Of a stretch of 64,000 nucleotides of DNA, positions 33,942-53,848 are shown in pieces (position 1 is the first letter of the stretch; each line of letters starts with the position of its first letter). A program made the translations under genes and the position numbers. The notes under the pieces are model-generated. The model searched no databases, had not been told where the DNA came from, and saw only the letters and a program-made list of their open reading frames with translations. Source of the DNA: Microbispora sp. ZYX-F-249. GTDB lineage: Bacteria; Actinomycetota; Actinomycetes; Streptosporangiales; Streptosporangiaceae. The stretch lies in the NCBI RefSeq assembly GCF_039649665.1, contig NZ_JBDJAW010000016.1, forward strand, positions 1 to 64,000, written 5' to 3'.

Positions 33942-34730
33942 GTGGGGATGGTCAGCAGGGTTGTGGCCGGTGGCGTGCCGGTCGCGGCAGAGGATTACGG
34001 GGGAAACGGCAGGGACGTTCTCCTTCTCCATGGGGGAGGACGATCCCGCAGGGATTGGGATTCCTTTGCTGGGCTTCTCATAAGCAACGGATTTCGCGCG
34101 GTCTCGATGGATCACCGTGGGCATGGGGAGTCCGGCGAGGCGCCATGGTCATGGGACGAGGCGCTCGCGGATGTCGCTGCCGTTGTCGAGGAGTATGGAC
34201 TTCACCGGCCTATGATCGTCGGGCATTCGCTCGGGGGTATGGTCGCCGCGTTGTGGGCCGGCGAACATGCGGAGTGTCCGCTCGCGGTGAACCTTGATGG
34301 TCATGGCAATCCGACGCGTCCAGACCAGTTCTTCGGTCTGGACGAGGTCTCGGCAGCCGATGCCTGCCGGGCGATGACCGGGTTCCTGGCTGAGATGGGC
34401 CGGGGGCTTCCGGAGGAGTTCCTGCAGGTCATGAAGGAGATAGACGCCCTGGGCCTGTGCACCGTCTATCGCGCTGTGCGTTGTCCGCTCCTTGTCGTCA
34501 GCGGCGACGCTTCGGCTTTCGCAGCAATGTTCCCGGAGCATCTCGTCACGGCGTGGAACGCCTACTGCCTCTGGCTCGAAAAACAGCTTGAAGCAATTAC
34601 TCGGGAACTGCCTCTGGTCCGGCACGTGTCACTGGGGACAGGGCATGATCCTCATATTGAGGATCCTCAGGCTCTGCTGAGTGTTTTGATTGGACACCTG
34701 AATCTACGCAGAGAGAAGTGGAGCGGGTGA
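33942..34730 (+). CDS. Alpha/beta hydrolase whose C-terminus is encoded by a tRNA-derived att remnant
   Basis: About 262 residues, with the start at GTG 33942 or ATG 33948; GGGAGG at 33928 favours the GTG. Landmarks are DVLLLHGGGRSRRDWDSF (oxyanion), SMDHRGHGESG, nucleophile elbow VGHSLGGM, and a His near the end (GTGHDPHIEDPQ). The last codons, Trp-Ser-Gly-stop, lie within the first copy of the tRNA-Gly 3' sequence that begins at 34719, so this end was created or altered by an integration event. Substrate unknown. Confidence 0.8.
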   Translation: MGMVSRVVAGGVPVAAEDYGGNGRDVLLLHGGGRSRRDWDSFAGLLISNGFRAVSMDHRGHGESGEAPWSWDEALADVAAVVEEYGLHRPMIVGHSLGGMVAALWAGEHAECPLAVNLDGHGNPTRPDQFFGLDEVSAADACRAMTGFLAEMGRGLPEEFLQVMKEIDALGLCTVYRAVRCPLLVVSGDASAFAAMFPEHLVTAWNAYCLWLEKQLEAITRELPLVRHVSLGTGHDPHIEDPQALLSVLIGHLNLRREKWSG

Positions 34731-34762
34731 CGGGAGGCGAACCTGCGCTGTCGGTTGAGAAT
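34719..34762 (-). repeat. Degenerate tRNA-Gly 3' fragment (att remnant 1)
   Basis: About 44 bp matching the 3' half of the tRNA-Gly gene at 53775-53848 with several mismatches (for example GGGAGGCGAACCTGC for GGGAATCGAACCCGC). It is the oldest-looking and outermost copy of the array, and marks the left limit of the accretion zone. Confidence 0.7.
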
Positions 34763-34773
34763 CGCGAGGAGGA

Positions 34774-35172
34774 TCACGCGGGGTGTTCCTGCTCCGGCCG
34801 GCGTGCAGGTTCGTCGGTGGTCACGGAGAACAGCAACCAGTCGACACCGGGCACAGTGAAGTGAGCACTGACCGTCTTGGTGGCGATGCCTTCGAATTCC
34901 AGGTCGTCGTCGAAGGTATTGCAGGTGACGGACCAGGGGAAGGCAATCCTCTGCGCCACGAGCAGGGTACGGAATACGGCCTCCTGCGGCTCCTGTATCC
35001 CGAGCGGGGAAGTCATCTGGACCGCGGCCAACTCCGGGATCTTCCAGTAGCGCTCGTAGGACAGGAGCGTGAAGGGCTCTCCCACGGCCTTGCCCATGCT
35101 GGCGATTACTCGTTCGGCTCCGGCCTGCTTGTTCACACGCAGGTAGCCTCGCCAGTAAATGACTCTGAACAC
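34774..35172 (-). CDS. Hypothetical protein
   Basis: About 132 residues from GTG 35172 (VFRVIYWRGYLRVNKQAGAE). An upstream open stretch reads as low-complexity, so this start is preferred. The protein is a mixed alpha/beta globular sequence with no family recognised (LLSYERYWKIPELAAVQMTS; PGVDWLLFSVTTDEP). It lies just inside the first att remnant and is probably integrated cargo. Confidence 0.55.
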   Translation of the reverse strand: MFRVIYWRGYLRVNKQAGAERVIASMGKAVGEPFTLLSYERYWKIPELAAVQMTSPLGIQEPQEAVFRTLLVAQRIAFPWSVTCNTFDDDLEFEGIATKTVSAHFTVPGVDWLLFSVTTDEPARRPEQEHPA

Positions 35173-35229
35173 GGCGTCATGGTGGCACGGGAGCCAGATG
35201 CCGCGCACCTGCGCGCACCCCGAAGAATT

Positions 35230-35490
35230 TCCGCGGGCGATGTGACCCGAGCCCGGGGGTTTGTTCTGTGGGGCTCCACAATCGACGGCGACTACCTTGG
35301 CTGGACGACAATGGGCACGCCGGAGGAATGGCCTGTGGCGCTTATCGGTGATGATGACGAGGCGCAGGAGCACTTGTTTGTGGCGACCCTGACTGAGCAG
35401 CTGGTCGGGTGGGCTTCGAGCGCGCGGTTCGACAGCGGTGGATTCGCCCGTAGAGATGAAGATCGCCCCCTGGTATGTGAACCCCGGTAG
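35230..35490 (+). pseudogene. C-terminal fragment of a SMI1/KNR4 (SUKH)-type immunity protein
   Basis: The frame reads VLWGSTIDGDYLGWTTMGTPEEWPVALI followed by LTEQLVGWASSARFDSGGFA. This is the C-terminal half of SUKH/SMI1 proteins, which commonly act as immunity proteins for polymorphic toxins. No start codon or N-terminal half is present. It is probably cargo decayed on insertion. Confidence 0.5.
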
Positions 35491-35601
35491 TAGGGCGACT
35501 CTCTCGTGGGGCGGGCCGAGCTCGCGGCCGAGTCGGGCCCGGGGCTCGAGGACCTCAGGGTCCGCTACCTGCTGAGCCGGCCGGGTGGGACAGTGAGCAC
35601 T

Positions 35602-35982
35602 ATGAACACTGTCCTCAATGTCATCTGGCTGATCTTCGCCGGCCTGTGGCTCGCATTAGGCTACGTCGTGGCGGGGATCATCTGCTGCGTCCTCATCGTC
35701 ACCATCCCGTTCGGCATCGCGTCGTTCCGTATCGCGGGCTACGCGCTGTGGCCGTTCGGCCGGACCGTCGCCGACAAACCGTCCTCCGGTGCGTGGTCGG
35801 TGCTCGGCAACGTCATCTGGCTGCTCGTCGCCGGGATCTGGTTGGCGATCGGGCACATCGCCACCGCGATCCCGCTGTTCATTTCGATCATCGGCATCCC
35901 GCTGGGGATCGCGAACCTCAAAATGATCCCGATTTCGCTGATGCCGCTGGGCAAGGACATCGTTCCGGTGAGCCGCGGATAA
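35602..35982 (+). CDS. yccF: YccF-family inner membrane protein
   Basis: 126 residues starting MNTVLNVIWLIFAGLWLALGY at ATG 35602 (GTG 35593 is the alternative). The two YccF/DUF307 repeats are clear: NVIWLIFAGLWLALGY...IPFGIASFRIAGYALWPFGRTV, then NVIWLLVAGIWLAIGH...IPLGIANLKM. Small membrane protein of unknown function. Confidence 0.88.
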   Translation: MNTVLNVIWLIFAGLWLALGYVVAGIICCVLIVTIPFGIASFRIAGYALWPFGRTVADKPSSGAWSVLGNVIWLLVAGIWLAIGHIATAIPLFISIIGIPLGIANLKMIPISLMPLGKDIVPVSRG

Positions 35983-36492: not shown

Positions 36493-36589
36493 TCCGAGCG
36501 GCGGGCGCGCGCGAGAACGGCCCGGGCCGCACGCGCAGCGTGGGGCCCGCAGGCTCGGGCCGCCTGGCGGCGCGGAGCGCCGCCCTTGA
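36493..36589. repeat. GC-rich structured repeat, copy A (divergent)
   Basis: About 97 bp ending in the hairpin GGCGGCGC-GGA-GCGCCGCC followed by CTTGA, as in copies B (40835-40928) and C (42259-42352). The internal part is rearranged relative to B and C. The truncated zinc-finger/rep remnant resumes exactly at its right edge. Confidence 0.65.
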
Positions 36590-37051
36590 TGTGCTGTGGC
36601 TCGACCCCGTGCGAGGGATCGTCGAGTGCCACGAGTGCGGCGAGAAGGCCACCGTCATCGTTGACGGTCTCGGCCCGGCCGACCTCCTCGACCCCCTCAG
36701 CGCGTGGGACGGTCACCGGTGACCAACCCGCACGACCGCTCCGCACCTCGCGCCGCCCGGATGGCTCAACCGCTGGCCCGTGAGGTCGTGGAAGAGATTG
36801 CCAAGCAGTACGGCGTCTGTATCCGGCCGGTTCCGCTGCGGCGGCAGGACATCCTCACCGGACAGGTGAGGTAATGGACGTCCCGTGCGGGGCCACGTTG
36901 GAGAGCAAGTGCCCGCCGTGCGCCAAGCGCAACCGGCAACTCCGGCGGGCGCAGTGCCGGGAAGGCTGGCACCTCGACCACGATCCGAATCAACCTTCCC
37001 GACAAGGCCGACGACGACCAGCGCCACCTCGTGGAACTGCGGGCCGACGCG
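36588..37051 (+). pseudogene. Remnant of a second AICE: zinc-finger gene plus RepSA 5' part
   Basis: Bases 36588-36721 match the C-terminal two-thirds of the small zinc-finger gene at 50326-50517. Bases 36719-37051 match about the first 115 codons of the RepSA-like gene at 50514. A one-base deletion around 36869 (CAGGTGAGG against CAGGTTGAGG) shifts the frame, and homology stops near 37051, where arm-type sequence begins. It is therefore non-functional, and shows that a related element once occupied this site. Confidence 0.85.
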
Positions 37052-37121
37052 CGAACAGGGGTGCAGGTCAGGGCTGGCCGAGTGACCGTGAGTCCCCGCG
37101 ATCCACCGCTGATCGCCGTCC

Positions 37122-37143
37122 GTTCTGGCACGCATCTGGCACG
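37122..37143. repeat. Paired 11-bp arm-type repeats (GTTCTGGCACG / CATCTGGCACG)
   Basis: Two tandem 11-bp units preceded by the GTGACCGTGAGTCCCC block seen at other left ends in the array. There is no tRNA fragment immediately beside it; the RepSA remnant abuts instead, suggesting an internal deletion. Confidence 0.6.
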
Positions 37144-37782: not shown

Positions 37783-37826
37783 TGGAGCGGGTGACGGGAA
37801 TCGAACCCGCGCTGCCAGCTTGGGAA
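37783..37826 (-). repeat. tRNA-Gly 3' fragment (att remnant 2)
   Basis: 44 bp identical to the 3' half of tRNA-Gly (from CCA to the anticodon loop) apart from one base (GCCAGC for GTCAGC). It starts the VapBC segment. The preceding bases lack the terminator found at some other copies. Confidence 0.85.
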
Positions 37827-37929
37827 GTCTTTCAGGACCATGCGCTCTGAGCTGGGAGTACGTTGACCTGGGCCTACAGCGGTCGAGTCACCGTGAGTCC
37901 CCGCAGCTCCCCACTGATCGCCGCCAACC

Positions 37930-37951
37930 GAACGGGCACGCCACGGGTACG
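37930..37951. repeat. Paired 11-bp arm-type repeats (GAACGGGCACG / CCACGGGTACG)
   Basis: Tandem units with an 11-bp period, about 104 bp inside att remnant 2, preceded by the shared GTCACCGTGAGTCCCC block. They are the left arm of the VapBC segment; no matching right arm was seen. Confidence 0.55.
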
Positions 37952-37998: not shown

Positions 37999-38244
37999 AT
38001 GAGCGCCGGGCATGCGCATGAGGAGCTTCATCACCTGGTCGACCGGCTGTCGCCGGACCAGGCGGGTCGGCTGCTGCGGTTGGTCAAGACAGACCCGGAA
38101 CTCGCTGAGGCCGCGAACGATGATTTGTCGGAACCGGTACGGCGTCGCCGACTGTCGATCGCGGGAATCGGCGCATCCGGAGAAGGCGATCTATCGGAAC
38201 GGGTCGAAAATCTGCTGGCGGAGCGATTCAATCGGTCGGTGTGA
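37999..38244 (+). CDS. vapB: VapB-type antitoxin
   Basis: The 81-residue protein is encoded directly upstream of a PIN toxin and overlaps it by GTGA. Two helical stretches (EELHHLVDRLSPDQAGRLLRLV; VRRRRLSIAGIGASG) are followed by a toxin-wrapping tail (DLSERVENLLAERF). A -10-like TAGACT ends 6 bp before the ATG, so the transcript may be leaderless. It neutralises the toxin and presumably autorepresses the pair. Confidence 0.75.
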   Translation: MSAGHAHEELHHLVDRLSPDQAGRLLRLVKTDPELAEAANDDLSEPVRRRRLSIAGIGASGEGDLSERVENLLAERFNRSV

Positions 38245-38666
38245 CCGCTACGCTCCTGGACACAGAGCCGCTGATCGCCGTTGTCGATCGCGATGACAAG
38301 CACCATGCCTCATGTGTGCGACTCCTTGAGCAGTTGGAAGGGCCGTTGCTTCTTCCTTCGACCATCCTGATCGAGGCTGGTTGGACGATCAACAGGCACA
38401 TGGGACCGGCCGTACACGCGCAGTTCCTTGATCTCGTCATTGAGGAGTTCGAGCTGGTCGATCTGCTTGCCGCTGACGTACGACGTATGGCCGAACTCGT
38501 CCGGCTCTACGAGGATGCTCGCCTCGACCCTGCAGATGTGTCCGTAGTCGCAATCGCCGAGCGGCTGGGAATCACACAGATAGCGACGATCGACCGGCGC
38601 GACTTCGGCCTAATCCGGCCCCGGCATGTGGCCGCGTTCAGGCTGCTGCCGGAGGTGCTCGCTTAG
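38241..38666 (+). CDS. vapC: VapC-type PIN-domain ribonuclease toxin
   Basis: The 141-residue PIN protein starts at GTG 38241. The acidic site is visible as LLDTEPLIAVVD (first Asp), IEAGW (Glu), LDPADVSVVAIAE (Asp) and ATIDRRDF (Asp pair). VapC toxins cleave tRNA or rRNA; the target here is unknown. The pair sits alone between two tRNA-Gly fragments, so it may stabilise the segment. Confidence 0.9.
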   Translation: MTATLLDTEPLIAVVDRDDKHHASCVRLLEQLEGPLLLPSTILIEAGWTINRHMGPAVHAQFLDLVIEEFELVDLLAADVRRMAELVRLYEDARLDPADVSVVAIAERLGITQIATIDRRDFGLIRPRHVAAFRLLPEVLA

Positions 38667-38670
38667 CTCT

Positions 38671-38711
38671 TGGAGCGGGTGACGGGAATCGAACCCGCGC
38701 TGTCAGCTTGG
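38671..38711 (-). repeat. tRNA-Gly 3' fragment (att remnant 3)
   Basis: Identical to the tRNA 3' half through GTCAGCTTGG, then one base shorter in the anticodon-loop run. It closes the VapBC segment and opens the next. Confidence 0.85.
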
Positions 38712-38815
38712 AAATAGACTACTGATCTTGCCGTGCTGAGCTGCGAAAACAGGGGCGCAGGTCAGGGCTGGCCGAGCGACCATGAATCTCCGCGATTCAC
38801 CGCTGGTCGCCGTCC

Positions 38816-38837
38816 GTTCTGGCATGCATATGGCACG
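38816..38837. repeat. Paired 11-bp arm-type repeats (GTTCTGGCATG / CATATGGCACG)
   Basis: Close to the pair at 37122-37143. It is preceded by the same block (GAGCGACCATGAATCTCC) that precedes the other left arms. Left arm of the segment 38671-39615. Confidence 0.6.
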
Positions 38838-38917
38838 TGATCAAGGTCGTGGCCTGGCCGCTTCTCTACCTGGCCTCGCGTTGGTCATTCAAGTCGAGCA
38901 GGGAGACAATTCCTGAC

Positions 38918-39556
38918 GTGCACTCCATCTACCAGGACGGAAACGACGCTGGGCGGTTTGCCGCTCAGATCTATCGGGGGCTGCGTGAGGGCGACCTTCG
39001 CGCCGAGCCGGTGGTCGAGCTTGCGTGCCAAATAGAGGAACTCGATGCAGGCCGCCCTCCGGTGCAAGAGATCCTGAAACGCCCGACAGCGGAGTTGACA
39101 TCTGAGGAAGTGGCCTATCTCGGGCGGGACCTGCTTAGGGTGACAGGCTTCGATCAATTATGGGCCACGCTGGAGACAGCAGTGAAGGTCGTGGAAGGCG
39201 ATGTCCGCGCCTCAGGTATCGATGCGGTGCTGACAATCGTTATCCCGGACTGGGATGACAGCGGCTGCGCGCGGGTGCAGTGCTGCGGCGGTTGTGGCGG
39301 TCCTGCCATCTGGCCGAGCAGCGGACGAGACGTCAGCGTCGCCCTTGTCGAGATCGCAGACGCAGCTCAGGACGTCGTCATGGAACACATCTGGGGAGTG
39401 TGGCCGACCTGTCCCGAGCACCGGCTTGGCCTACATGCTGCCTTGGTGGAGGGAACCGCAGTATGGCAATGCGCGGGCGCGGGCCTTCACACTGCGGCTG
39501 CCATCGGTGACCTTGGACTGAGTGCTCGCCAAAGTCATTCTCACCGGTCGAAGTGA
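38918..39556 (+). CDS. Hypothetical protein with C-terminal metal-binding-like region
   Basis: About 212 residues; start GTG 38918 behind GGGAG is preferred. The N-terminal half is helical (DAGRFAAQIYRGLREGDLRAEPVVELACQ; EEVAYLGRDLLRVTGFDQLW). The C-terminal half has CCGGCGG, then WPTCPEHRLGLHAALVEGTAVWQCAGAGLH, a Cys/His-rich pattern seen in actinomycete hypothetical proteins. It is the sole gene of its att-flanked segment. Function unknown. Confidence 0.6.
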   Translation: MHSIYQDGNDAGRFAAQIYRGLREGDLRAEPVVELACQIEELDAGRPPVQEILKRPTAELTSEEVAYLGRDLLRVTGFDQLWATLETAVKVVEGDVRASGIDAVLTIVIPDWDDSGCARVQCCGGCGGPAIWPSSGRDVSVALVEIADAAQDVVMEHIWGVWPTCPEHRLGLHAALVEGTAVWQCAGAGLHTAAAIGDLGLSARQSHSHRSK

Positions 39557-39614: not shown

Positions 39615-39658
39615 TGGAGCGGGTGACGGGAATCGAACCCGCGCTGTCAGCTTGGGAA
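39615..39658 (-). repeat. tRNA-Gly 3' fragment (att remnant 4)
   Basis: A 44-bp exact match to the tRNA 3' half, preceded by a partial terminator (GACCTGGGCCTT) as at the intact tRNA. It is the left boundary of the segment ending at 41323. Confidence 0.9.
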
Positions 39659-39708
39659 TTGCATGGATCACGTCATGAGTGACCGTGATTGTCCCCTCGT
39701 CACCCTGC

Positions 39709-39730
39709 TTAATGGCCCGTTAATGGCCCA
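39709..39730. repeat. Left paired arm repeats (TTAATGGCCCG / TTAATGGCCCA)
   Basis: Tandem 11-bp units 51 bp inside att remnant 4. The same sequence class recurs at the right end of this segment (41230-41251), so both ends belong to one element. Confidence 0.7.
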
Positions 39731-40803: not shown

Positions 40804-41085
40804 TCATGGGTGTGCGGCGGAGTAGACGTGCGCCCCGAGCCGCCGGCGGCCGGGATCGGCCCGCAGGCCGCACGCCCGGCCGCCGAGCGGGCGCAGGGCC
40901 GCGAGGCGGCGCGCAGCGCCGCCCTTGACAGTTACACGATGCTCGCGGTGGAGAGTGTCACGGTATTCAACCTCGTAACGTCCGTCCTCCAGGAGAGCTA
41001 CAGAGGCGAACCAGGTCGAGTCCTCTTCGTCGGGCTCGATGATGACGTAGGTGTTATCCGGATGGGTGAAATCCTCGATCATCAT
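40804..41085 (-). CDS. Hypothetical protein, tail replaced by a structured repeat
   Basis: 93 residues from ATG 41085. The first 53 residues look genuine (MMIEDFTHPDNTYVIIEPDE, ASVALLEDGRYEVEYRDTL). From VKGGAARRLAAL onward the frame simply translates repeat copy B, so the original C terminus has probably been replaced. The N-terminal part resembles small actinomycete immunity-like proteins; this is a weak impression. Confidence 0.5.
   Translation of the reverse strand: MMIEDFTHPDNTYVIIEPDEEDSTWFASVALLEDGRYEVEYRDTLHREHRVTVKGGAARRLAALRPLGGRACGLRADPGRRRLGAHVYSAAHP
40835..40928. repeat. GC-rich structured repeat, copy B
   Basis: 94 bp, nearly identical to copy C at 42259-42352. It ends in the hairpin GGCGGCGC-GCA-GCGCCGCC followed by CTTGA. 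It covers the end of the preceding minus-strand gene. Confidence 0.8.
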
Positions 41086-41229
41086 GTAGATGGCGTCTTC
41101 GGAAGGATCTTCGTGTTGACGTCACCGCCCTCGGACTTCGCAAGGTAGTAGACGGGTTCGCGCTCCATGGCTGCCCATCGGTTCAGTGGCCCGACCACAG
41201 CATCCAAGATCCAAGCTTGGAACAAGACC

Positions 41230-41251
41230 TAATGGCCCGCTGATGGCCCGA
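41230..41251. repeat. Right paired arm repeats (CTAATGGCCCG / CTGATGGCCCG)
   Basis: Tandem units matching the left pair at 39709-39730. They lie 72 bp before the att copy, the same layout as at the right end of the intact element. Confidence 0.7.
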
Positions 41252-41279
41252 GAAGAATGAAGCGCCTCGAAAACAATCA

Positions 41280-41317
41280 AGGCCCGGGTCTGGATTGCTG
41301 TCCTGACCTGGGCCTTC
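41280..41317 (-). terminator. Terminator hairpin duplicated with the att site
   Basis: Arms AAGGCCCGGGTC (41280-41291) and GACCTGGGCCTT (41306-41317). The same hairpin lies just past the 3' end of the intact tRNA-Gly at 53731-53768, so it travelled with an element right end. Confidence 0.7.
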
Positions 41318-41322
41318 GGGCT

Positions 41323-41366
41323 TGGAGCGGGTGACGGGAATCGAACCCGCGCTGTCAGCTTGGGAA
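41323..41366 (-). repeat. tRNA-Gly 3' fragment (att remnant 5, attL of the intact AICE)
   Basis: An exact 44-bp match to the 3' half of tRNA-Gly (CCA end to anticodon loop). With the intact tRNA copy at 53775-53818 it brackets a 12.4-kb element carrying xis and int at the opposite end, so it is the best candidate for attL. Boundary accurate to about one base. Confidence 0.88.
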
Positions 41367-41450
41367 TCGCACAGATCATGCCTCGTAGGGCGGCTGACCT
41401 GGGCTTCGGACGGGTCATGAGTGACCGTGGTTACCCCCTCGTCACCCTGG

Positions 41451-41472
41451 CTAATTGCACGCCAATTGCACG
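41451..41472. repeat. Left paired arm repeats (CTAATTGCACG / CCAATTGCACG)
   Basis: Two tandem 11-bp units 85 bp inside attL. They match the pair at the integrase stop codon, 53681-53702. They probably bind the integrase arm domain. Confidence 0.75.
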
Positions 41473-42258: not shown

Positions 42259-42352
42259 CCGAGCTGCCGGCGGCCGGGACCGGCCCCCAGGCCGCATGCC
42301 CGGCCGCCGAGCGGGCGACGGGCCGCGAGGCGGCGCGGAGCGCCGCCCTTGA
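42259..42352. repeat. GC-rich structured repeat, copy C
   Basis: 94 bp with only a handful of differences from copy B. The terminal hairpin is at 42329-42347 (8-bp arms, GGA loop). It lies in a 462-bp gene-free stretch (42228-42689); the remainder of that stretch shows only the promoter of the next gene. Confidence 0.8.
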
Positions 42353-42651: not shown

Positions 42652-42690
42652 TTGACGATTGGTAGCGCTGTGGATGGATACTGTTGCGCA
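42652..42690 (+). promoter_or_regulatory. Putative promoter, leaderless start of the ParB-like gene
   Basis: A TTGACG -35-like box at 42652-42657 and a GATACT -10-like box at 42677-42682 (spacer 19 bp) place the transcription start at or next to the ATG at 42690. No ribosome site is visible, which agrees with a leaderless message. Confidence 0.45.
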
Positions 42691-44141
42691 TGGAATACAA
42701 GGTATTGCCCCTCAAGCGGCTCCTCCTCGACACGCTCAATCCTCGGCATGACCCCATGACTGGCCAGCAAGATGCCATGCATGCCCTGCTGGCAGGCAAG
42801 GGAGGGGCACAGCTATTAAGGCTCGCAGAGGACATCGCAGAATATGGGCCAAGCCCCATCGAGTTACCACTTGTTATCCCTGAAGGTCAATTCTTTGTCG
42901 TCGTAGAAGGTAATCGGCGTATTGCGGCGATGAAGCTGCTCCAAGATCCGACCTTAGCTAGGGGCTCAAAAATCGAGCAAGCGATCCTTGAGCTTAGTAG
43001 CAGAACTGATTCCGCTATAGAGCTCCCGTGCGTTATCGCAGAGTCGCGGGATGAGGCTAGACGTTGGATCGAACTCCGGCACAACGGCAGTCAGCTAGGC
43101 GTCGGAGTTGTCGGGTGGAGCCCAGAAATGCAAGTGAGGTTCACTGGCATCTACTCCGGCCAGAGAGGACGGGCTCTCAGACTGACTGACGCGCTAGAGG
43201 CTGCATTTGCAGACGACGAGGAAATGAAGGGTCTCCTGCAAAGCGTCAAGTTGACCAGGCTGACGACACTCGGAAGGCTTGCTAGCGACCCAGATTTTCG
43301 TGCAGTAGTTGGGCTCACTTTTAAGCAAGATAAGCTTACGAGTGAGTACCCGCTTCGGGCGATGCGGCCTATCTGGCTCAAGGTCATGAAAGACCTGGCC
43401 GGATCGGTTACGGTCTCCTCTCTGAAGAATAAGAAGCAGCGGGGAGATTACATTGAGAAGCTCAGCGGGCTTGCTCCTCATCCAGAGGATGAGCCGACCC
43501 AGTCGGTGCCACCGCAAGAGGAAAGCCCTCCGCCTGCAGACCGGCCGAGAGAACCGGCCGGCGAGCCAAAAAAGGGCGGGCAAGAAACTCTATGGGAAGA
43601 GCCCTCCGCGGAACCTGCTCCTGACCCAGAGCCGGTACCGTCTCCTAGGCCGACGCAACCTATGGGTGATGACAGGGGCAACGTGTCCCGTGTCTCTAAT
43701 CAGAGGCCGCGGCCTATGCGGTTGTTCTACGGCGTCAGGCTGGCCAATGTCGGCCCAAAGGCTAAAGACGTTCTCCGGGAAGCTCAGCGGATAGATCTAC
43801 ATGAGTACCCAAATGCCGGGGCTGCTCTCATCCGTATCCTGGTCGAGCTAGTCATCGGCGAAGCAGTGGAAAGGCTCAAGTGGGAGGCGAGAACTGAGCT
43901 GAGAGACAGAATCAACGTATGTCTCGCCAAGCTCGATCCCACGAACAAGTCGGATCGGTACCTGCCGGTTCGCAGGGCGATGAGCGACAGGGATAGTCCC
44001 TTCTCAATGAGGTCCATGCAGGGCTATCTGCACAACGCCCATCTACCTGCTGACCCCCTCGGTCTCCGTGCACTTTCGGAAACTTATGCTACGCTTCTGC
44101 GTGATCTGGATGCCCAACTAGAAAGTCTCCCCCGAGCTTGA
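42690..44141 (+). CDS. ParB/Srx-like N-terminal domain protein (AICE cargo)
   Basis: The 483-residue protein opens with a ParB-like nuclease/NTPase fold: KVLPLKRLLLDTLNPRHDP, LAEDIAEYGPSPIELPLVI, and the diagnostic VEGNRRIAAMKLL at residues 72-84. A Pro/Glu-rich linker lies at about 262-335, and a helical C-terminal domain follows (DLHEYPNAGAALIRILVELVIGEAVERL). It is not a chromosome-partition ParB: there is no HTH of that family and no ParA neighbour. Its stop overlaps the start of a DNA adenine methyltransferase by TTGA. Base composition is clearly more AT-rich than neighbours, pointing to separate acquisition. It could be a nuclease or DNA-binding partner in a modification or defence system; that is inference. 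Confidence 0.75.
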   Translation: MEYKVLPLKRLLLDTLNPRHDPMTGQQDAMHALLAGKGGAQLLRLAEDIAEYGPSPIELPLVIPEGQFFVVVEGNRRIAAMKLLQDPTLARGSKIEQAILELSSRTDSAIELPCVIAESRDEARRWIELRHNGSQLGVGVVGWSPEMQVRFTGIYSGQRGRALRLTDALEAAFADDEEMKGLLQSVKLTRLTTLGRLASDPDFRAVVGLTFKQDKLTSEYPLRAMRPIWLKVMKDLAGSVTVSSLKNKKQRGDYIEKLSGLAPHPEDEPTQSVPPQEESPPPADRPREPAGEPKKGGQETLWEEPSAEPAPDPEPVPSPRPTQPMGDDRGNVSRVSNQRPRPMRLFYGVRLANVGPKAKDVLREAQRIDLHEYPNAGAALIRILVELVIGEAVERLKWEARTELRDRINVCLAKLDPTNKSDRYLPVRRAMSDRDSPFSMRSMQGYLHNAHLPADPLGLRALSETYATLLRDLDAQLESLPRA

Positions 44142-45080: not shown

Positions 45081-46376
45081 TTAGTCGAGCAGATCAGGGC
45101 GGCGACTAGTTAGGGCGCGGCGGGCCGCCACGTAGCGTTCGTGGAAATTGTCGGCGAGAGCTTCACGACGGTAGCGCTGACGTAGGACACGGTCGAGGTC
45201 TCCGGCCCGGTTCACGAGGTCGGTGAGGGACTTGCGCTCGATGTCGAATGCGGCCATGCCTCGCTCGACGGCGGCGTCAAGGTCTCCGCGTCGGGCGTGG
45301 ACGATGCCGAGGTCTATGTGGGCGTCGGCGACGCGCATAGGTGCGTTAGAGGTGCCGTCCGGGCGGGTGTGCATCTGGATCGTCTCCAGCGCGTGTTCCT
45401 CGGCCCGGTCGTTGTCCTCAAGCCACGTGTACGCAGTGGCGGCGTAGAAGACCCACTTGGCGTGGTCGAACACGAAGTGGTGATCCGGGTTCTCGGGGAG
45501 CGGCAGTTTGGCGAGGATGTCGGCCCCGCGTGAGAGCGCCTGGTCGGCTTCGCGGCGGTCGCCGATGCGGGCTAAGCCGCGGGCTTCTTGCAAGGTGAGC
45601 TGTACCTGTGCGCTGGATTGGCCGGCGAGGGCCTGGCCCTGGCGGGCGGCCGTGACAACGTCCTCGTATCGGCCTTCGACCAGGGCGAACCATGCGGACA
45701 TCTCGTGTGCCCAGCCCATGAGTTCGCCGTGTCCGACCTGGCGGCCCATCTCGTAGGCAGCCTGCCGGGCCGTCTCGGCTTCCTCACGCTCGCCCAGGTC
45801 GTAATGAACGCAGCCGAGCAGGGCGGTAAGCCATCCGGTGATGACCAGTAGTTCGCGGTGCTGGTCGAGTGTGATCCTGCCGGACAGGAGCCGGGTCACC
45901 TGGGCGAGGCGCTTTTGTGTCCGGTCGCGCAGCGTCGCGGCGGGGACAACCGGGTAGGCGCGGCACAGCAGATCGACGGCCTCGGCGAGGGCTTCGAGGG
46001 TGCCGGTCCCGACATCGGACGCCTGGAGCTGCTGCGCGAGCTCCATCGTGCCGTACAGTTCGGCCTCGGCCCGAAGCGCGTCGACCGGCATGACGTGTGC
46101 CTCGATGAGGCGGCTATTGCCGCTGCCTCTCTTTGCGGGAGAGAAGCCGAGATCTTCGGGCTGTAGTCCGGTGGCTTGAGTCAGCGCGAGTCGAAATGGG
46201 GCACGAGGCCAGGAGACTTCGCCGGCCTCCCATCGCCTAATGCGTTCTTCATCGACCGCGAGACGTTCCCTGATGCCCACAGGAGTGCGGTTAATCCGCT
46301 CGGCGAATTCGGCGCGGGTGAGCTGTTGCGCGTTGCGCCATGCGCGGAGTTGGACATTCGGGATGCTGTCTGGCAT
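45081..46376 (-). CDS. XRE-family regulator with TPR-like sensor region (AICE)
   Basis: 431 residues from ATG 46376 behind GGGAGGAAG. The HTH is at about 8-70 (VQLRAWRNAQQLTRAEFAERINR...VDEERIRRWEAGEVSWPRAPFR). The remainder is helical TPR-like repeats (LGCVHYDLGEREEAETARQAAYEMGR, ARQGQALAGQSSAQVQLTLQEARGLARIGDRREADQAL, split over several units). Such XRE-TPR proteins often sense small peptides or regulate mobile elements. It is divergent from the small AICE genes at 46520 and convergent with the methyltransferase. Confidence 0.85.
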   Translation of the reverse strand: MPDSIPNVQLRAWRNAQQLTRAEFAERINRTPVGIRERLAVDEERIRRWEAGEVSWPRAPFRLALTQATGLQPEDLGFSPAKRGSGNSRLIEAHVMPVDALRAEAELYGTMELAQQLQASDVGTGTLEALAEAVDLLCRAYPVVPAATLRDRTQKRLAQVTRLLSGRITLDQHRELLVITGWLTALLGCVHYDLGEREEAETARQAAYEMGRQVGHGELMGWAHEMSAWFALVEGRYEDVVTAARQGQALAGQSSAQVQLTLQEARGLARIGDRREADQALSRGADILAKLPLPENPDHHFVFDHAKWVFYAATAYTWLEDNDRAEEHALETIQMHTRPDGTSNAPMRVADAHIDLGIVHARRGDLDAAVERGMAAFDIERKSLTDLVNRAGDLDRVLRQRYRREALADNFHERYVAARRALTSRRPDLLD

Positions 46377-46519
46377 CTCGGGGTCTTCCTCCCGTCGGGG
46401 GGTCATCAGGGGGTTAAGAGGGGGGCTTTTCGGGGGTCCTATCGCACTCGCTTTGCCGGTGGACTTGCCATCAACCAACCACGGTACGTCAAGCGGCTTC
46501 CCGCCACAGGGAACGCCGG

Positions 46520-46729
46520 ATGAACGAGGAGATGGCGACGGTGACCCGGCCAGACGAGAACAGCGAGGCAAGACCCTGTCCTTCGTGTCGGGGACGTGGC
46601 ACCAAGCGGTGCCATTCACGCCGTCAGCTCGTCGTCGGCGGCGAAACCAGCGACGAACACGACTCGGGTGGGGAGCGGGAGTGCCTCGACTGCCTCGGAA
46701 ACGGCCGGGCCGAAGGGAGCGGAACATGA
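46520..46729 (+). CDS. Small zinc-finger-like AICE protein
   Basis: 69 residues with two CxxC pairs in a DnaJ-like pattern: CPSCRGRGTKRC and CLDCLGNG, separated by an acidic loop. It probably binds one or two zinc ions. It overlaps the next gene by ATGA and is divergent from the XRE regulator. Function unknown; small Cys-rich proteins are frequent in this element type. Confidence 0.7.
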   Translation: MNEEMATVTRPDENSEARPCPSCRGRGTKRCHSRRQLVVGGETSDEHDSGGERECLDCLGNGRAEGSGT

Positions 46730-48863: not shown

Positions 48864-48907
48864 CAGATCTCTCACACACGCCAATGCCTGAGAGGACACC
48901 AAGCCTA

Positions 48908-50329
48908 ATGTTCAAGAAACTCCCTGGCGACGAGGCACGCAACCTCGTCTCCACCACACCAGACACGGCCGTGGTCTTCCGCCCGGCCGTCATGCAAACC
49001 CCCGCCATCGTCACCATCGTGATCTGGCTGTCCCGCCTCGTCGCGGGCCTGGTCCGCCTGGTCGTGCGGCATCCGGTCGCCGTGGCCATCCCGGTCGGCC
49101 TCGGGGTGATCTGGACCCTGTACGGCTGGCGACTGGCCCTGGTCATGGCCGGATTCCTGCCCTCGGCGGGCCTGTCCTGGCTGCTGTTGGACCGGGCCTC
49201 GTTCCTACGCCTGGTCGGCTGGCCGCTGCTGGCCTGGTGGCGGCTCGTCGCCGTCTACCGGCGGCACTGGCAACCGGTCATGGTCGTGTCCGGTCTCGGG
49301 CGGCACATCCGGGGCCGCGACTACCTGCCCCGCCTGGTGCGGGTGGAGTGCGACGGGTGGGCCGACCGCGTCAGTGTGAAGATGCTCAACGGTCAGGCTG
49401 TCACCGACTGGGCCGACCGCATCGAGCACCTGGCCCACGGCTTCGGCGCCCCGTCCTGCCGGGTGGCCGTCGCTCGGGCCGGGCGGCTCGTGCTCACCTT
49501 CCCCCGGCGCGACCCCCTCGCCGAACCCCTGCCCGCGCTTCCTGTCCCTGACGAGGCGTCGGTGGGGCCGGTGGAGATCGGGCGGTGCGAGGACGGCTCA
49601 CCGCTGCGGCTTAAGGTTCACGGCACGCACGTCCTGATCGCCGGGGCCACGGGCGCGGGTAAGGGCTCTTACCTGTGGTCGACGATCCGCGGTCTGCTTC
49701 CGGCGATGCGGGCGGGCCTGGTGCAGGTGTGGGCGCTGGACCCCAAGCGGATGGAGCTGTCCTTCGGGCGTGCGCTGTTCGGCGCGAGGTACGCCGCCGA
49801 TCCGAAGGAGTGCGCCGACCTGCTCGATGACGCCGTGTGCGTGATGCAGGAGCGGGCCGATCGGTTCGCCGGCCTCCAGCGCTCGCATACGCCGACCGCC
49901 GCTGATCCGTTCGTCTTGGTGCTCGTGGACGAGGTGGCGTTCCTGACCGCCTACCAGCCCGACAAGCAACTCCGTCAGCGCATCACGGCGGCCCTGGCCA
50001 CCCTGACCACGCAAGGCCGGGCGGTCGGTGTCGGGGTCATGGCGGCCTTGCAGGACCCGCGCAAGGAGGTCATGAACATCCGCAACCTGTTCCCCGACAA
50101 GATCGCGCTGCGGCTCGATGAGTCAGAGCAGGTGGACATGGTCCTCGGCGACGGCGCACGCGACCGGGGCGCACTGGCCGACCACATCTCACCCGTCCCG
50201 GAGCTGGGCGCGGGAGTCGGCTACGTCCGACTGGAGACCTCCCCCGATCCGGTCCGCGTGCGGGCGGCCTACGTCTCCGACACGGATATCCGGGCGATGG
50301 TCGCCGAGTTCGCGGGGGTGGGCCGATGA
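48908..50329 (+). CDS. traSA: FtsK/SpoIIIE-type DNA translocase (TraSA-like conjugation protein)
   Basis: About 473 residues from ATG 48908 (GAGAGG upstream; ATG 48884 is possible). Two to three membrane helices lie at about 30-110 (TPAIVTIVIWLSRLVAGLV; VAIPVGLGVIWTLYGWRLAL). The motor has Walker A GATGAGKGS at 246-254 and Walker B VLVLVDEVAF around Asp341, with ALDPKRMEL between. In actinomycetes one such protein moves double-stranded DNA between mycelia, so no type IV secretion genes are needed. It overlaps the next gene by ATGA in a tra-spd-rep operon. Confidence 0.93.
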   Translation: MFKKLPGDEARNLVSTTPDTAVVFRPAVMQTPAIVTIVIWLSRLVAGLVRLVVRHPVAVAIPVGLGVIWTLYGWRLALVMAGFLPSAGLSWLLLDRASFLRLVGWPLLAWWRLVAVYRRHWQPVMVVSGLGRHIRGRDYLPRLVRVECDGWADRVSVKMLNGQAVTDWADRIEHLAHGFGAPSCRVAVARAGRLVLTFPRRDPLAEPLPALPVPDEASVGPVEIGRCEDGSPLRLKVHGTHVLIAGATGAGKGSYLWSTIRGLLPAMRAGLVQVWALDPKRMELSFGRALFGARYAADPKECADLLDDAVCVMQERADRFAGLQRSHTPTAADPFVLVLVDEVAFLTAYQPDKQLRQRITAALATLTTQGRAVGVGVMAALQDPRKEVMNIRNLFPDKIALRLDESEQVDMVLGDGARDRGALADHISPVPELGAGVGYVRLETSPDPVRVRAAYVSDTDIRAMVAEFAGVGR

Positions 50330-50517
50330 TGCGCCTGGCCCACATCCTCGACGGCCTGCGCTGCTCGGGCTGCGGCGCGCTCGATGTGCTGTGGCTCGAC
50401 CCGGTGCGCGGCATCGTCGAGTGCCACGAGTGCGGCGAAAAGGCCGCCGTGATGGTCGATGGCCTCGGTCCGGCCGACCTCCTCGACCCCCTCAGCGCGT
50501 GGGACGGTGACCGGTGA
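50326..50517 (+). CDS. Small zinc-ribbon AICE protein
   Basis: 63 residues with RCSGCGA and VECHECGEK (two CxxC pairs), a zinc-ribbon pattern. It lies between tra and rep with 4-base overlaps on both sides, so it is tightly coupled to them. A truncated relative is at 36588-36721. Function unknown; position resembles small spread/replication accessory genes. Confidence 0.75.
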   Translation: MMRLAHILDGLRCSGCGALDVLWLDPVRGIVECHECGEKAAVMVDGLGPADLLDPLSAWDGDR

Positions 50518-52127
50518 CCAACCCGTCCGACCGCTCCATCCCTCGCGCCGTGCGGATGGCGCAACCGCTGGCCCGTGAGGTCGTGGAAGAGATCGCCAAG
50601 CGGTACGGCGTCTGTATCCGGCCGGTTCCGCTCCGGCGGCAGGACATCGTCACCGGTCAGGTTGAGGTCATCGACGTCCCCTGCGGGGCGACGCTGGAGA
50701 GCAAGTGCCCGCCGTGCGCCAAGCGGAACCGGCAGCTTCGGCGGGCGCAGTGCCGGGAGGGCTGGCACCTGGAAGCCGAGCCGGTCAACCTCCCGGACAA
50801 CGCTGACGAGTATCAGCGTCACCTCGTGGAGCTGCGGGCCGATGCCCAAGCCTGGCGGGATGAGGTGGAAAAGGCCGGCGGCGACACCACCGACCTGGAC
50901 GCCGCCATCGAAGACCTGGACGAGGAGATCAACCGGGCGGGCATGCGCGGCAACGTCCTTGGCCGCACCTCGGGCAAGCGCTCCCGCTCGACCAAGCGGC
51001 GGCAGGACGCACCGGACCTGCCCAAGCGGCAGATGACCAAGACCACACTCGGGCGGACCTTTACCGGCTCGTACGGCAAGACCTACCGGCCCTCGATGTT
51101 CGTCACGCTCACCCTGCCCTCCTACGGGCGCGTGCTGGAGGGTGCGCCGCTCAACCCGGACGCCTACGACTACACGCGGGCAGCCCGCGACGCGCTGCAC
51201 TTCTCCAAGCTCGTCGACCGGTTCGTGCAGAACCTCCGCCGGGTCGCCGGATACGACGTGCAGTACTTCGCAACCGTCGAGCCACAAAAGCGGCTCGCCC
51301 CGCACCTGCACATGGCGATCCGCGGCACCCTGCCCCGTGCGGAACTGCGGCAGATCATCGCGGCCACCTACCACCAGGTGTGGTGGCCCTCGACCGACGA
51401 CGTCCGTTTCGAGGGCGACCGTCTGCCGGTCTGGGAGGACGGGGCCGGCTACCTCGACCCCGAAACCGGGGAGGTCCTGCCGACCTGGGAACAGGCCCTC
51501 GACGCCCTCGACCAAGACGACGAAGCCGAACCCCTGCACGTGCTCCGCTTCGGCGACCAGATGGACGTCAAAGGCGTGCTCGCTGGAACCCCGGACGCTG
51601 ACCAGCTCATCGGGTACCTGTCGAAGTACCTCACCAAGAGCCTCGGCGATGCCCTGGGCACCGACGACCCCCGCCGGAAAGCTCACGCCGAACGGCTGCT
51701 GGAGGCCCTGCGGTTCGAGCCGTGCTCACCGACCTGCCCGAACTGGCTGCGCTACGGGATCCAGCCCAAGGGCGCCAAGCCCGGCATGGCTCCGGGCCGG
51801 TGCAAGGGCAAGGCGCACAAGCCCGACCACCTCGGCTACGCGGGCCGCCGTGTCCTGGTCTCGCGCAAGTGGTCCAACAAGACCCTCACCGAGCACAAGC
51901 AGGACCGCCGCACCTGGGTCCTCGAAGCGCTCGGCATCGAAGACGAGCCGGTCGATCCCCACCGCTACATCTGGAAGCCCGTCAAGCCCGGTGATCCCGA
52001 CCTCGCCCCGATCGGCGTACGGCTCCTGCGCTCGGTCCACGAACGCCAACGCTGGCGCAACCACATGAATCAGCTCCAGGCCCAAGCCGAGGGCCGAGAT
52101 CTTTCGGCAATTCAGTCCGCCGCGTGA
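50514..52127 (+). CDS. repSA: RepSA-like replication initiator (HUH, rolling-circle type)
   Basis: 537 residues from GTG 50514. N-terminal Cys cluster ESKCPPCAKRNRQLRRAQC may bind zinc. The HUH motif is PHLHMAIRG with His264 and His266, and candidate nicking tyrosines Tyr368 and Tyr372 lie in LIGYLSKYLTKS. A further Cys pair is in CSPTCPNW. Proteins of this type start rolling-circle replication of the excised AICE. It is followed 13 bp later by xis. A broken paralogue lies at 36719-37051. Confidence 0.92.
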   Translation: MTNPSDRSIPRAVRMAQPLAREVVEEIAKRYGVCIRPVPLRRQDIVTGQVEVIDVPCGATLESKCPPCAKRNRQLRRAQCREGWHLEAEPVNLPDNADEYQRHLVELRADAQAWRDEVEKAGGDTTDLDAAIEDLDEEINRAGMRGNVLGRTSGKRSRSTKRRQDAPDLPKRQMTKTTLGRTFTGSYGKTYRPSMFVTLTLPSYGRVLEGAPLNPDAYDYTRAARDALHFSKLVDRFVQNLRRVAGYDVQYFATVEPQKRLAPHLHMAIRGTLPRAELRQIIAATYHQVWWPSTDDVRFEGDRLPVWEDGAGYLDPETGEVLPTWEQALDALDQDDEAEPLHVLRFGDQMDVKGVLAGTPDADQLIGYLSKYLTKSLGDALGTDDPRRKAHAERLLEALRFEPCSPTCPNWLRYGIQPKGAKPGMAPGRCKGKAHKPDHLGYAGRRVLVSRKWSNKTLTEHKQDRRTWVLEALGIEDEPVDPHRYIWKPVKPGDPDLAPIGVRLLRSVHERQRWRNHMNQLQAQAEGRDLSAIQSAA

Positions 52128-52140
52128 AGGGAGGAACACC

Positions 52141-52347
52141 TTGGATCAACTGCTCACTGTCCCGCAAGCGGCGGCCCGCCTGAACACCTCGGTTCGCTTC
52201 GTCCGTCGCCTGGTGGCCGAACGGCGCATCGAGTTCGTGAAGGTCGGTCGCCACGTCCGCATCTCCGAGTCTGCACTGACCGCCTTCGTCGTCGCGGGCA
52301 CGGTCGCGCCCCTGACGGCCCATGACATCACCGGGAGGGCGGCCTGA
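52141..52347 (+). CDS. xis: Excisionase (MerR-like HTH)
   Basis: 68 residues from TTG 52141 behind GGGAGG. HTH_17-type fold: LLTVPQAAARLNTSVRFVRRLVAERRIEFVKVGRHVRISESALTAFV in successive parts. It overlaps the integrase start (TGATG). It directs the integrase toward excision. Confidence 0.9.
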   Translation: MDQLLTVPQAAARLNTSVRFVRRLVAERRIEFVKVGRHVRISESALTAFVVAGTVAPLTAHDITGRAA

Positions 52348-53684
52348 TGGCCAAGGGCAACAAGCCGAACCATCGCCGTTTCGGCAACATCCGTCAGCTC
52401 CCGTCCGGCCGTTATCAGGTGAGCTACCTGGGGCCGGACGGGCGGCGGCGTACGGGCTCCGAGACGTACGAGCGCAAAGGCGATGCCGAACGAGCGCTCA
52501 CGCTGATCGAGGCCAAGATGATCTCGGGGGAGTGGACCGACCCCGATCGCGGCAAGGTCAAGCTCAAGGATTACGCCGAGACGTGGATCTCCCAGCGTCC
52601 GGGCCTTCGTCCGCGCACTGTCGATCTCTATACGTGGCTGCTCAAGAAGCACATCACGCCGTACCTCGGCGGGGTCCAGCTCGGCAAGCTCTCAACCGCG
52701 ATGATTCGGCAGTGGCGGGCCGACCTTCTCGGCAACGGCGTCTCGGTGTCCGTAGCGGCCAAGGCGTACCGGCTGCTGCGGGCTGTGCTGATGACGGCGG
52801 CCGAAGAGGACCACATCATCCCGCGCAACCCATGCCGGATCCGCGGGGCCGGCGACGAGCACGCGCAAGAGCGGCCGGTCCTCACCGTGGCCCAGGTCTT
52901 CGAGCTGGCTGACCTCGTGGGCCGTCGCCCTGTCGGCAACGTGCGCAAGCTCAAGGACAACGCCTATCGGCTGCGCTTCCAGCGGCATGGGGAGATGCGC
53001 ACGCATCCCGAGGTCTTCCGGACTCGCGCGGACGCCGAACGGGCGCTCTGGGCGATGGGCATGGACGGCCGGGCCGACTGTACCCAGGACAGACGCTTCC
53101 GCGCCCTGGTGCTGCTCGCAACCTTCGCGAGCCTGCGATGGGGCGAGGTCAGCGCCCTTCGTCGCAGTGACCTCGACCTGATCGCCGGGACGGTTCGCGT
53201 TCGGGCGGCCTTCGTCGAGCGCTCCACGGGGGAACTGGTCCTCGGGCCTCCCAAGTCCAAGGCCGGACGGCGAACCGTGGGCATCCCGCAAGCGATCGTT
53301 CCCGCACTGCGCGAGCACCTCGCTACCTACGTGCAGGACGAGCCGGGCGCGCTCCTCTTCCCCGGGGCCAAGGGCGGCCCTCTACGGCGCAGCGGCTTCA
53401 ACACCCGTACGCGCTGGGTGGACGTGGTCAAGGAGATGGGCCTCCCTGGCCTTCACTTCCATGATCTGCGTCACACCGGCAACATGCTCGCCGCCGAGTC
53501 GGGTGCGGGGCTCAAGGACCTGATGGCCCGGATGGGGCACGACAACGTCCGGGCCGCGATGATCTACCAGCACGCCGTACGCGGTGCCGACAAGACGATC
53601 ACGGACGCCATCGACCGGCACATCAGCGGGGCCGGTGACGAGGACGAGGGCGGGTCGGCCGCCGTCCTGATCCCCGTGGGCTAA
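52347..53684 (+). CDS. int: Tyrosine site-specific integrase with a duplicated arm-binding-like domain
   Basis: 445 residues, longer than usual for this family (about 380-400). N-terminal AP2-like arm-binding domain at about 11-60 (RFGNIRQLPSGRYQVSYLG...DAERALTLIE), core-binding domain at about 75-165, catalytic domain after that with Arg264 (SLRWGE), His372 and Arg375 (HFHDLRH), His398 and nucleophile Tyr407 (YQHA). Residues about 194-248 are an insertion before the first catalytic Arg that again reads VGNVRKL...AYRLRF...RADAERALWAM, matching the N-terminal domain. The gene ends 90 bp from tRNA-Gly; its stop codon lies in the right arm repeats. Confidence 0.93.
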   Translation: MAKGNKPNHRRFGNIRQLPSGRYQVSYLGPDGRRRTGSETYERKGDAERALTLIEAKMISGEWTDPDRGKVKLKDYAETWISQRPGLRPRTVDLYTWLLKKHITPYLGGVQLGKLSTAMIRQWRADLLGNGVSVSVAAKAYRLLRAVLMTAAEEDHIIPRNPCRIRGAGDEHAQERPVLTVAQVFELADLVGRRPVGNVRKLKDNAYRLRFQRHGEMRTHPEVFRTRADAERALWAMGMDGRADCTQDRRFRALVLLATFASLRWGEVSALRRSDLDLIAGTVRVRAAFVERSTGELVLGPPKSKAGRRTVGIPQAIVPALREHLATYVQDEPGALLFPGAKGGPLRRSGFNTRTRWVDVVKEMGLPGLHFHDLRHTGNMLAAESGAGLKDLMARMGHDNVRAAMIYQHAVRGADKTITDAIDRHISGAGDEDEGGSAAVLIPVG

Positions 53685-53702
53685 TTGCACGCTAATTGCA
53701 CG
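53681..53702. repeat. Right paired arm repeats (two CTAATTGCACG units)
   Basis: Two perfect tandem 11-bp units; the first contains the integrase stop codon. They match the left pair at 41451-41472 and so define the ends of the intact element. Confidence 0.8.
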
Positions 53703-53730
53703 GAAGATCGAACAGGTGTCAGAAATGATC

Positions 53731-53768
53731 AAGGCCCGGGTCGGGAATCTGTCCCTGACCTGGGCCTT
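53731..53768 (-). terminator. Terminator downstream of tRNA-Gly / element right end
   Basis: Arms AAGGCCCGGGTC and GACCTGGGCCTT with a 14-base centre. It lies between int and the tRNA 3' end and is repeated at 41280-41317. It probably ends int transcription from the left and tRNA transcription from the right. Confidence 0.75.
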
Positions 53769-53774
53769 CGCTCG

Positions 53775-53848
53775 TGGAGCGGGTGACGGGAATCGAACCC
53801 GCGCTGTCAGCTTGGGAAGCTGATGTTCTGCCATTGAACTACACCCGC
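53775..53848 (-). tRNA. tRNA-Gly (anticodon CCC), integration site of the AICE
   Basis: 74 nt including an encoded CCA. It folds as a full cloverleaf: acceptor GCGGGTG/CACCCGC, anticodon stem TCAGC/GCTGA with loop TTCCCAA (anticodon CCC, reading GGG) and T-arm GCGGG-TTCGATT-CCCGT. The 44 bp from CCA to the anticodon loop (53775-53818) is the att core, repeated five times to the left. Integration restores the gene because the element supplies the identical 3' half. Confidence 0.97.

Follow-up and report, generated by a model that had tools for sequence, protein, structure and literature searches.

We analysed a 64,000-nt stretch of Microbispora sp. ZYX-F-249 DNA (contig NZ_JBDJAW010000016.1, positions 1 to 64,000 of the forward strand; hereafter the window), in which an intact actinomycete integrative and conjugative element (AICE) lies at a tRNA-Gly(CCC) gene beside a row of shorter segments, all separated by copies of the 44-bp 3′ end of that gene (the core). 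We conclude that this locus is probably a cassette array, in which accretion of the kind known for cis-mobilizable elements (CIMEs) has turned integron-like. What is new here is a tandem accretion with CIME-like units, many of which are short, have one arm and carry one or two genes, and some of which are reassorted across the family Streptosporangiaceae.

Core copies divide the locus into segments

The initial annotation had described one intact AICE and at least four decayed neighbours, divided by five copies of the tRNA half besides the gene itself. The copies are real and lie where they had been placed: those at 37783, 38671, 39615 and 41323, together with the tRNA end at 53775, have 0–1 mismatches, and the leftmost one, at 34719, is degenerate (Table 1). 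Segments 1 to 5 measure 3064, 888, 944, 1708 and 12452 bp, in agreement with the 3.1, 0.9, 0.9, 1.7 and 12.4 kb given before. The extent first assigned to the array was too short, as segment 1 holds an additional arm without a core (Table 1) and a remnant of a type-C arm was detected at 32858-32906 with arm profiles built from relatives. Left of 34719 there is also a hydrolase-like open reading frame (ORF), the 3′ end of which resembles, by eye, the end of a unit in genome G011.

Five cores with 0–1 mismatch, the tRNA included, were found in the window and none in 100 shuffles of it, which rules out chance repeats as their origin. In the draft genome (8.8 Mb), the first 28 bp of the core (≤3 mismatches) matched at exactly six places, all within the array; the fragments are therefore not an unrelated dispersed repeat, the finding that would have spoken against the earlier description. 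An assembly artefact is also unlikely, because the single-contig genome G013 carries six cores; the other single-contig Microbispora genome, G009, has one.

Arrays occur in most Microbispora genomes and in other genera of the family

The 28-bp core (≤2 mismatches) gave 1 to 9 matches in each of the 15 Microbispora genomes, that of the window included, and core-to-core units were present in 13 of them; the stretches fetched from G009 and G012 held none. In a class-wide sample, the 44-bp pattern (≤3 mismatches) reached at least four copies in 8 of the 41 Streptosporangiaceae genomes vs 0 of 353 outside the family, where the largest count was three (counted by eye). Family counts made with the 28-bp pattern are to be read with the reservation that other tRNA-Gly genes can satisfy it.

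In total, we collected 187 core-to-core units from 47 stretches bearing 45 genome names, after exclusion of four loci, of which two lacked cores and two duplicated G201 and G136. Segment 1 of the window is outside this set, as the scan did not recognise its degenerate left core. All detected cores in the fetched stretches point the same way, the tRNA is the last on the right wherever it was reached, and one stretch holds up to 13 units. Apart from the tRNA genes themselves, 215 cores were compared with the tRNA over positions 3-44: 106 agree with it fully, and a further 52 differ at one position.

Units recur in different orders and across genera

Thirteen unit families recur, accounting for 42 of the 187 units. 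Their neighbours are rarely kept: the right neighbour was conserved in 2/51 known pairs and the left in 2/49. Outside the cores, units with the same cargo are 55 and 57% alike, vs 54 and 56% for unrelated units; inside the right end the figures are 74% vs 51%, with vapBC units making up 91 of the 111 pairs. The order of units also differs. Families F00 and F01 stand as F00-F01 in the window vs F01-F00 in G011, and two Planomonospora arrays read F04-F02-F00 vs F00-F04.

Segment 2 carries a VapBC-like pair consisting of a PIN-domain toxin and an upstream partner without a family match. Relatives of its VapC with at least 84% identity occur at 22 named loci in eight genera, one of them (L118) a fragment, and at 19 of the 22, from seven genera, a core starts no more than ~20 nt from where the match ends. 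This is the opposite of what would have counted against the earlier description, namely cargo lying in relatives as plain chromosome free of tRNA fragments.

In the vapBC tree, the Microbispora copies form one clade, and elsewhere the tree departs from the genera: Streptosporangium subroseum groups with Planotetraspora and Sphaerisporangium (100/99), and Nonomuraea candida and Nonomuraea corallina group with Streptosporangium canum and Streptosporangium minutum (100/99). The approximately unbiased (AU) test rejected a Streptosporangium clade (p 4.4e-5) and a Nonomuraea clade (p 0.0014). We used genus names for this test because few carriers had comparable rpoB; the marker was matched in 14 of 23 genomes searched, ten of them over a length that allowed comparison, and eight of the ten are vapBC carriers. 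For S. subroseum, rpoB is 94.6% identical to that of S. canum and 90.3% to that of Planotetraspora mira, vs 79.6 and 85.6% for vapBC.

One comparison, of a close pair of genomes, caught presence and absence between cores. Two cores of genome G036 enclose three units (6858 bp); at the corresponding place G116 has a single core, and both of its flanks match. The match on the left flank runs up to and through the core, bar a gap of ~95 bp, and past the core it shifts to the right side of the second G036 core. The homology switches at the core, and the two right arms there differ in sequence.

Unit anatomy points to arm-type integrase sites, kept on the left

The left arm, which lies to the right of a core, falls into three families (A, B and C) and ends in two 10-bp repeats 11 bp apart, which begin at a distance from the core of about 85 bp in type C and 101 bp in types A and B. 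In many int-bearing units a right arm is also present, with the repeat ~93 bp before the next core, adjacent to int, and with a hairpin. The left and right motifs of one unit resemble each other (mean 1.15 mismatches vs 2.02 when shuffled; 41 units, 0/2000 shuffles). The right-arm type follows the integrase (Int) group in 10/10 units with an Int of at least 300 aa, of which four of type C are 81-93% alike, five of type A are 66-86% alike and one of type B is at most 56% alike to any other. From their position and this match, the repeats appear to be arm-type integrase sites. They are the best-kept part of the arms, with pairwise identities of 89, 86 and 68% (A, B, C) vs 69, 60 and 57% in the preceding 20 bp, values somewhat inflated because the position of the repeat had been set by agreement with the consensus. 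The arm profiles were trained on repeat-bearing arms with the repeat columns removed, and when the arm was detected by its proximal part only, the repeat was present within 3 mismatches in 70 of 82 short int-less units (classes by gene call).

To classify the units, we ran tblastn with the replication (Rep) and transfer (Tra) proteins of the window and ten Ints as queries. Units below 2 kb number 103 of the 187; 81 of these hold no piece of Int, Rep or Tra and 22 hold an Int piece, none of the 103 having a match to Rep or Tra without one to Int. The left repeat was found in 64 of the 81 and the right in 4, compared with 18 and 16 of the 22, giving 82 and 20 among all 103. In longer units, the left and right counts were 33 and 26 of 44 with Int, and 24 and 4 of 40 without. 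At random places the repeat was met in 2/1345 on each side. Gene calls came from a custom ORF scorer, which called neither the VapB-like ORF nor the 239-aa ORF in segment 3; the int-less class made from these calls (87 units) held six with Int pieces by tblastn, and the tblastn counts (81) were used instead.

A promoter role for the cargo as the sole cause of left-arm retention was weighed against the direction of the first gene. The left repeat is kept in 47/53 units with a forward first gene, 18/26 with a reverse one and 5/8 with no called gene (p 0.057, forward vs reverse), which left the matter undecided. A GC-rich site, D6, is found in 22/46 int-bearing units (gene-call class) vs 6/141 others, segment 4 among the latter. 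Of its 94 bp, 39 recur without a change beside a GntR gene on a Nonomuraea plasmid of 7.7 kb, and we regard D6 as a candidate clt or replication origin.

The segments of the window differ in kind

Table 1. Coordinates of the features of the array in the window.
Feature	Position	Strand	Remark
Core copy, degenerate	34719-34762	+	9/44 mismatches
AICE-region remnant inside segment 1	36577-36987	+	88-90% identical to 50372-50783 (start of rep)
Type-B left arm without core, inside segment 1	37054-37143	+	extra unit boundary; arm profile, E 3.6e-24
Core copy	37783-37826	+	1 mismatch
Type-A left arm, segment 2	37827-37951	+	ends in arm-type direct repeat, imperfect
Upstream partner of PIN gene, segment 2	38012-38296	+	presumed VapB-like antitoxin, by position only; no Pfam match
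PIN-domain (VapC-like) gene, segment 2	38241-38666	+	E 3.3e-13; stop codon 4 nt before next core
Core copy	38671-38714	+	1 mismatch
Type-B left arm, segment 3	38717-38837	+	repeat imperfect
239-aa ORF, segment 3	38837-39556	+	no family match
Core copy	39615-39658	+	0 mismatches
Type-C left arm, segment 4	39662-39729	+	shortened; repeat TAATGGCCCG/TAATGGCCCA
D6 site, segment 4	40835-40928	+	GC-rich 94-bp repeated site; candidate transfer or replication origin
Right arm, segment 4	41229-41319	+	repeat TAATGGCCCG/TGATGGCCCG; terminator-like hairpin
Core copy	41323-41366	+	0 mismatches; right attachment (att) site of segment 4, left att of AICE
Type-C left arm, AICE	41368-41472	+	TAATTGCACG/CAATTGCACG
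D6 site, AICE	42259-42352	+	same 94-bp GC-rich site as in segment 4
PD-Lambda-5 A anti-phage protein, AICE cargo	42684-44141	+	E 6e-116
PD-Lambda-5 B, D12-class adenine methyltransferase, AICE cargo	44138-45034	+	E 1.5e-100
FtsK/TraB-like transfer protein	48884-50329	+	PF01580, E 4e-12, over cut-off; NCBIfam TraB equivalog below cut-off
RepSA-type replication initiator	50514-52127	+	PF20199, E 3e-108; NCBIfam RepSA equivalog below cut-off
Xis	52141-52347	+	excisionase family, E 1e-15
Tyrosine integrase, type C	52347-53684	+	
Right arm, AICE	53681-53772	+	TAATTGCACG twice; hairpin-like end
tRNA-Gly(CCC), intact	53775-53848	-	3′ 44 bp (53775-53818) = core and right att of AICE

Segments 1 to 4 have att copies on both sides, the left core of segment 1 being degenerate; they lack a working int, tra or rep and lie alongside an intact element with the same att, as CIMEs do. 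No gene call in segments 2 to 4 matched the Int, Tra or Rep of the window, in line with the earlier statement that only the last segment holds int and xis. The picture of stacked, CIME-like units beside an intact AICE holds for the layout, and the term decayed has to be restricted. It fits segment 1, with its ~0.4-kb remnant of the rep region, and segment 4, which has type-C arms with repeats on both sides and a D6 site and no int, and is of a different kind from the one-armed short units. Segments 2 and 3 have arm repeats on the left only and recur whole, core to core, elsewhere. The right arm plus core of segment 4 folds as DNA with a z of -4.0. A D6-like match is also seen at 36556-36590.

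Segment 5 has the make-up of an AICE, with Int and Xis at one end, a tRNA 3′-end site, an FtsK/TraB-type protein and a RepSA-type initiator. An NsdA-family TPR regulator, exceeding the NCBIfam cut-off, lies within it at 45081-46727. Among plasmids we found no record covering 80% of the AICE that could represent its circular form; the best, an 11.85-Mb Nonomuraea record, covers 27%.

Several att pairs had been supposed to be open, in principle, to the resident integrase. The cores indeed match, but the arms agree only in part: the arm class of the Int fits segment 5, the segment 4 repeats are a type-C variant differing by two bases each, and segments 2 and 3 have arms of types A and B. Searches of the draft genome returned only the window Int with type-A (E up to 1e-40) and type-C (E up to 1e-60) queries, and, when the query was of type B (E up to 1e-20), the same Int together with two incomplete frames (165 and 236 aa); neither type A nor type B was represented there by an intact Int. 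From these arm types, the predicted excision products of the type-C Int are the AICE (12.45 kb), its composite with segment 4 (14.2 kb) and, possibly, segment 4 by itself (1.7 kb). Segments 2 and 3 should be poor substrates because their arms are of types A and B with imperfect repeats, and would move only if arms are dispensable or another Int arrives. Within Microbispora, a full-length type-A or type-C Int at tRNA-Gly(CCC) was detected in 3/15 genomes (G000, G001 and G008), in a search confined to these two types.

The cargo is diverse

We scanned 150 of 151 representative cargo proteins from units below 4 kb. They matched 129 Pfam families, led by GNAT acetyltransferases (seven for the top model) and including helix-turn-helix, PIN and Gp49-like proteins, methyltransferases and insertion sequence (IS) transposases. 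Two of the 150 matched RepSA in Pfam, and their units may be 2-4 kb long or int-bearing. When the packets were considered as general carriers of defence genes, PADLOC assigned 18 families among these proteins, 15 of them with a single member. The cargo as a whole is reminiscent of the content of integron cassettes.

Weighing of the explanations

We propose that AICEs of the three arm types and their relatives would share one core at tRNA-Gly(CCC), each integration rebuilding the tRNA at the right end and shifting older units to the left. Many units would have been stripped of int, rep and tra until nothing remained between one core and the next but a left arm with its repeats and one or two cargo genes, and recombination at the level of the core would add, remove and re-order whole units. 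The integrase for this movement probably comes with an incoming AICE, so that pieces would spread between genera and the array would stay static between arrivals. We infer that Int binds the repeats, that it acts on the units in trans and that one arm suffices. A bolder version, which is possible though we rather doubt it as a whole, is that Streptosporangiaceae keep a tRNA-built, integron-like gene store, where one-armed packets would be cut and pasted in trans by AICE-borne integrases of the three arm types, with toxin-antitoxin, acetyltransferase and other genes spreading singly between genera. If true, single genes could move as tRNA-bounded packets without a mobility gene, island finders that look for integrases would overlook them, and the decay of conjugative elements would be tied to the origin of cassette systems. 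Two questions become testable: whether a core with one arm suffices for an AICE integrase, and whether the arm type picks which packets move.

Several observations weigh against a cassette array. In our sample 145 of the 187 units do not recur, the arrays were picked partly for their high copy number, and the single-contig G009 has the tRNA copy alone. The left arm was expected to travel with its cargo and does not (65% alike vs a 63% baseline), and within Microbispora the arms of vapBC units are 67-86% alike and the cargo 90-98%; a core better conserved than the cargo was not borne out for these units. Two arms are chimeric, their proximal part being of one type and their distal part of the other (A and B); together with the uncoupling of arms from cargo, this indicates that some other recombination also exchanges arms. 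The left arm disagrees with the Int type in 4/10 elements. No core was found at three vapBC loci, L104, L113 and L100, the last of which shows by eye a degenerate trace. A Planotetraspora clade was not rejected by the AU test (p 0.41), and Planomonospora rpoB, 94.3% identical to that of S. canum, is as near to it as that of S. subroseum, which makes the genus borders soft and Streptosporangium possibly an unclean genus for this test. The loss of the right repeat is partly definitional, as this repeat borders the end of int, a definition that leaves unexplained that the left repeat is as common in int-less as in int-bearing units. The breakpoints at the right end are scattered, which also excluded a fixed deletion point at the right-arm hairpin.

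Some of the same facts would be expected if AICEs had simply stacked at one tRNA and been eroded by internal deletion, their pieces being immobile thereafter. The scattered breakpoints, the many units without recurrence, the Int pieces in 22/103 short units and segment 1 with its rep-region remnant and coreless arm all agree with such a history, and accretion with defective AICEs is known from Streptomyces (PMC9513070, as far as consulted). We nevertheless consider it unlikely, since recurring units mostly stand beside different neighbours, the left repeat is equally common without Int pieces (64/81) and with them (18/22), short units show no Rep or Tra piece in the absence of Int, and the vapBC tree conflicts with two genera.

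Shuffling by RecA between the core-plus-arm repeats, which are roughly 165 bp long and present throughout, would need chromosomal DNA transfer and no integrase, and it would account for the exchange of arms relative to cargo and for the chimeric A/B arms. It is harder to reconcile with the G036/G116 case, where homology switches at the core between differing right arms, and with the repeats being the best-kept part of the arms, and we think it quite improbable as the main process. An old array passed down vertically and altered by nothing but losses in single lineages would agree with the spread of core copies in the genus and family and with the single Microbispora clade of vapBC; the differing unit orders and the rejection of two genus clades make this history highly implausible.

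Comparison with known systems

Like integrons and CALINs (cassette arrays without an integrase), which the locus recalls, the arrays described here are made of ordered small packets with diverse cargo (acetyltransferases, toxin-antitoxin-like genes), often with no intact local integrase of the searched types. They differ from integrons in that the window has no IntI-type integrase (TIGR02249, 18 bits against a cut-off of 265) and in the site, which is a tRNA 3′ half with direct-repeat arms and no known attC (no attC model was run). The resident AICE has TraB-like, RepSA-type, Xis and Int genes in this order and a tRNA target, as in pSAM2, where TraB, RepSA, Xis and Int follow in the same order and the target is a tRNA. 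It differs from pSAM2-type AICEs in that it may serve as a helper of the array and not as a solitary element.

The int-less, att-bounded segments beside an intact element are shared with CIMEs and with the accretion of integrative and conjugative elements (ICEs; ICESt1 family) and of AICEs. In the parts of the reports that we consulted, tandem AICEs of Frankia excise singly and together (Ghinet 2011, PMC3218068), and Streptomyces AICEs, defective ones included, accrete at one tRNA-Arg (Choufa 2022, PMC9513070). Here, in contrast, there are up to 13 units per fetched stretch, 103 of 187 are below 2 kb, some recur across genera in other orders, and one core goes with three arm types. The ssrA islands of Dehalococcoides are likewise tandem and bounded by copies of an RNA-gene end, and 15/31 lack an integration module, for which CIMEs were suggested (McMurdie 2011, PMC3146451, consulted in part); they differ in having a serine recombinase and a 20-bp repeat, and the consulted part describes no single-gene packets or arm typing. 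A literature search at the level of titles and abstracts, mostly without subscription papers, found no description of such arrays in Streptosporangiaceae.

Related pieces were also seen elsewhere. Locus L069 (G004:C1:404000-414000) combines a vapBC unit with a piece like the start of a G013 unit; no tRNA-Gly lies in the fetched stretch, which adjoins a stretch conserved in the genus. It is not established as an ectopic piece of an array, as the right flanks are not syntenic among the matches listed and no empty site was shown. Family F07 (L121-L123, G156:C6; L125-L126, G118:C19) is a unit of ~16 kb without an Int call, with proteins of ~750 and 1700 aa, 97% identical between the two genomes. 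Finally, a type-C-like arm with a partial core occurs at other loci (G013:C1:3051386, G006:C20:59070, G007:C58:107457 and others), which suggests that the same arm family may serve elements elsewhere.

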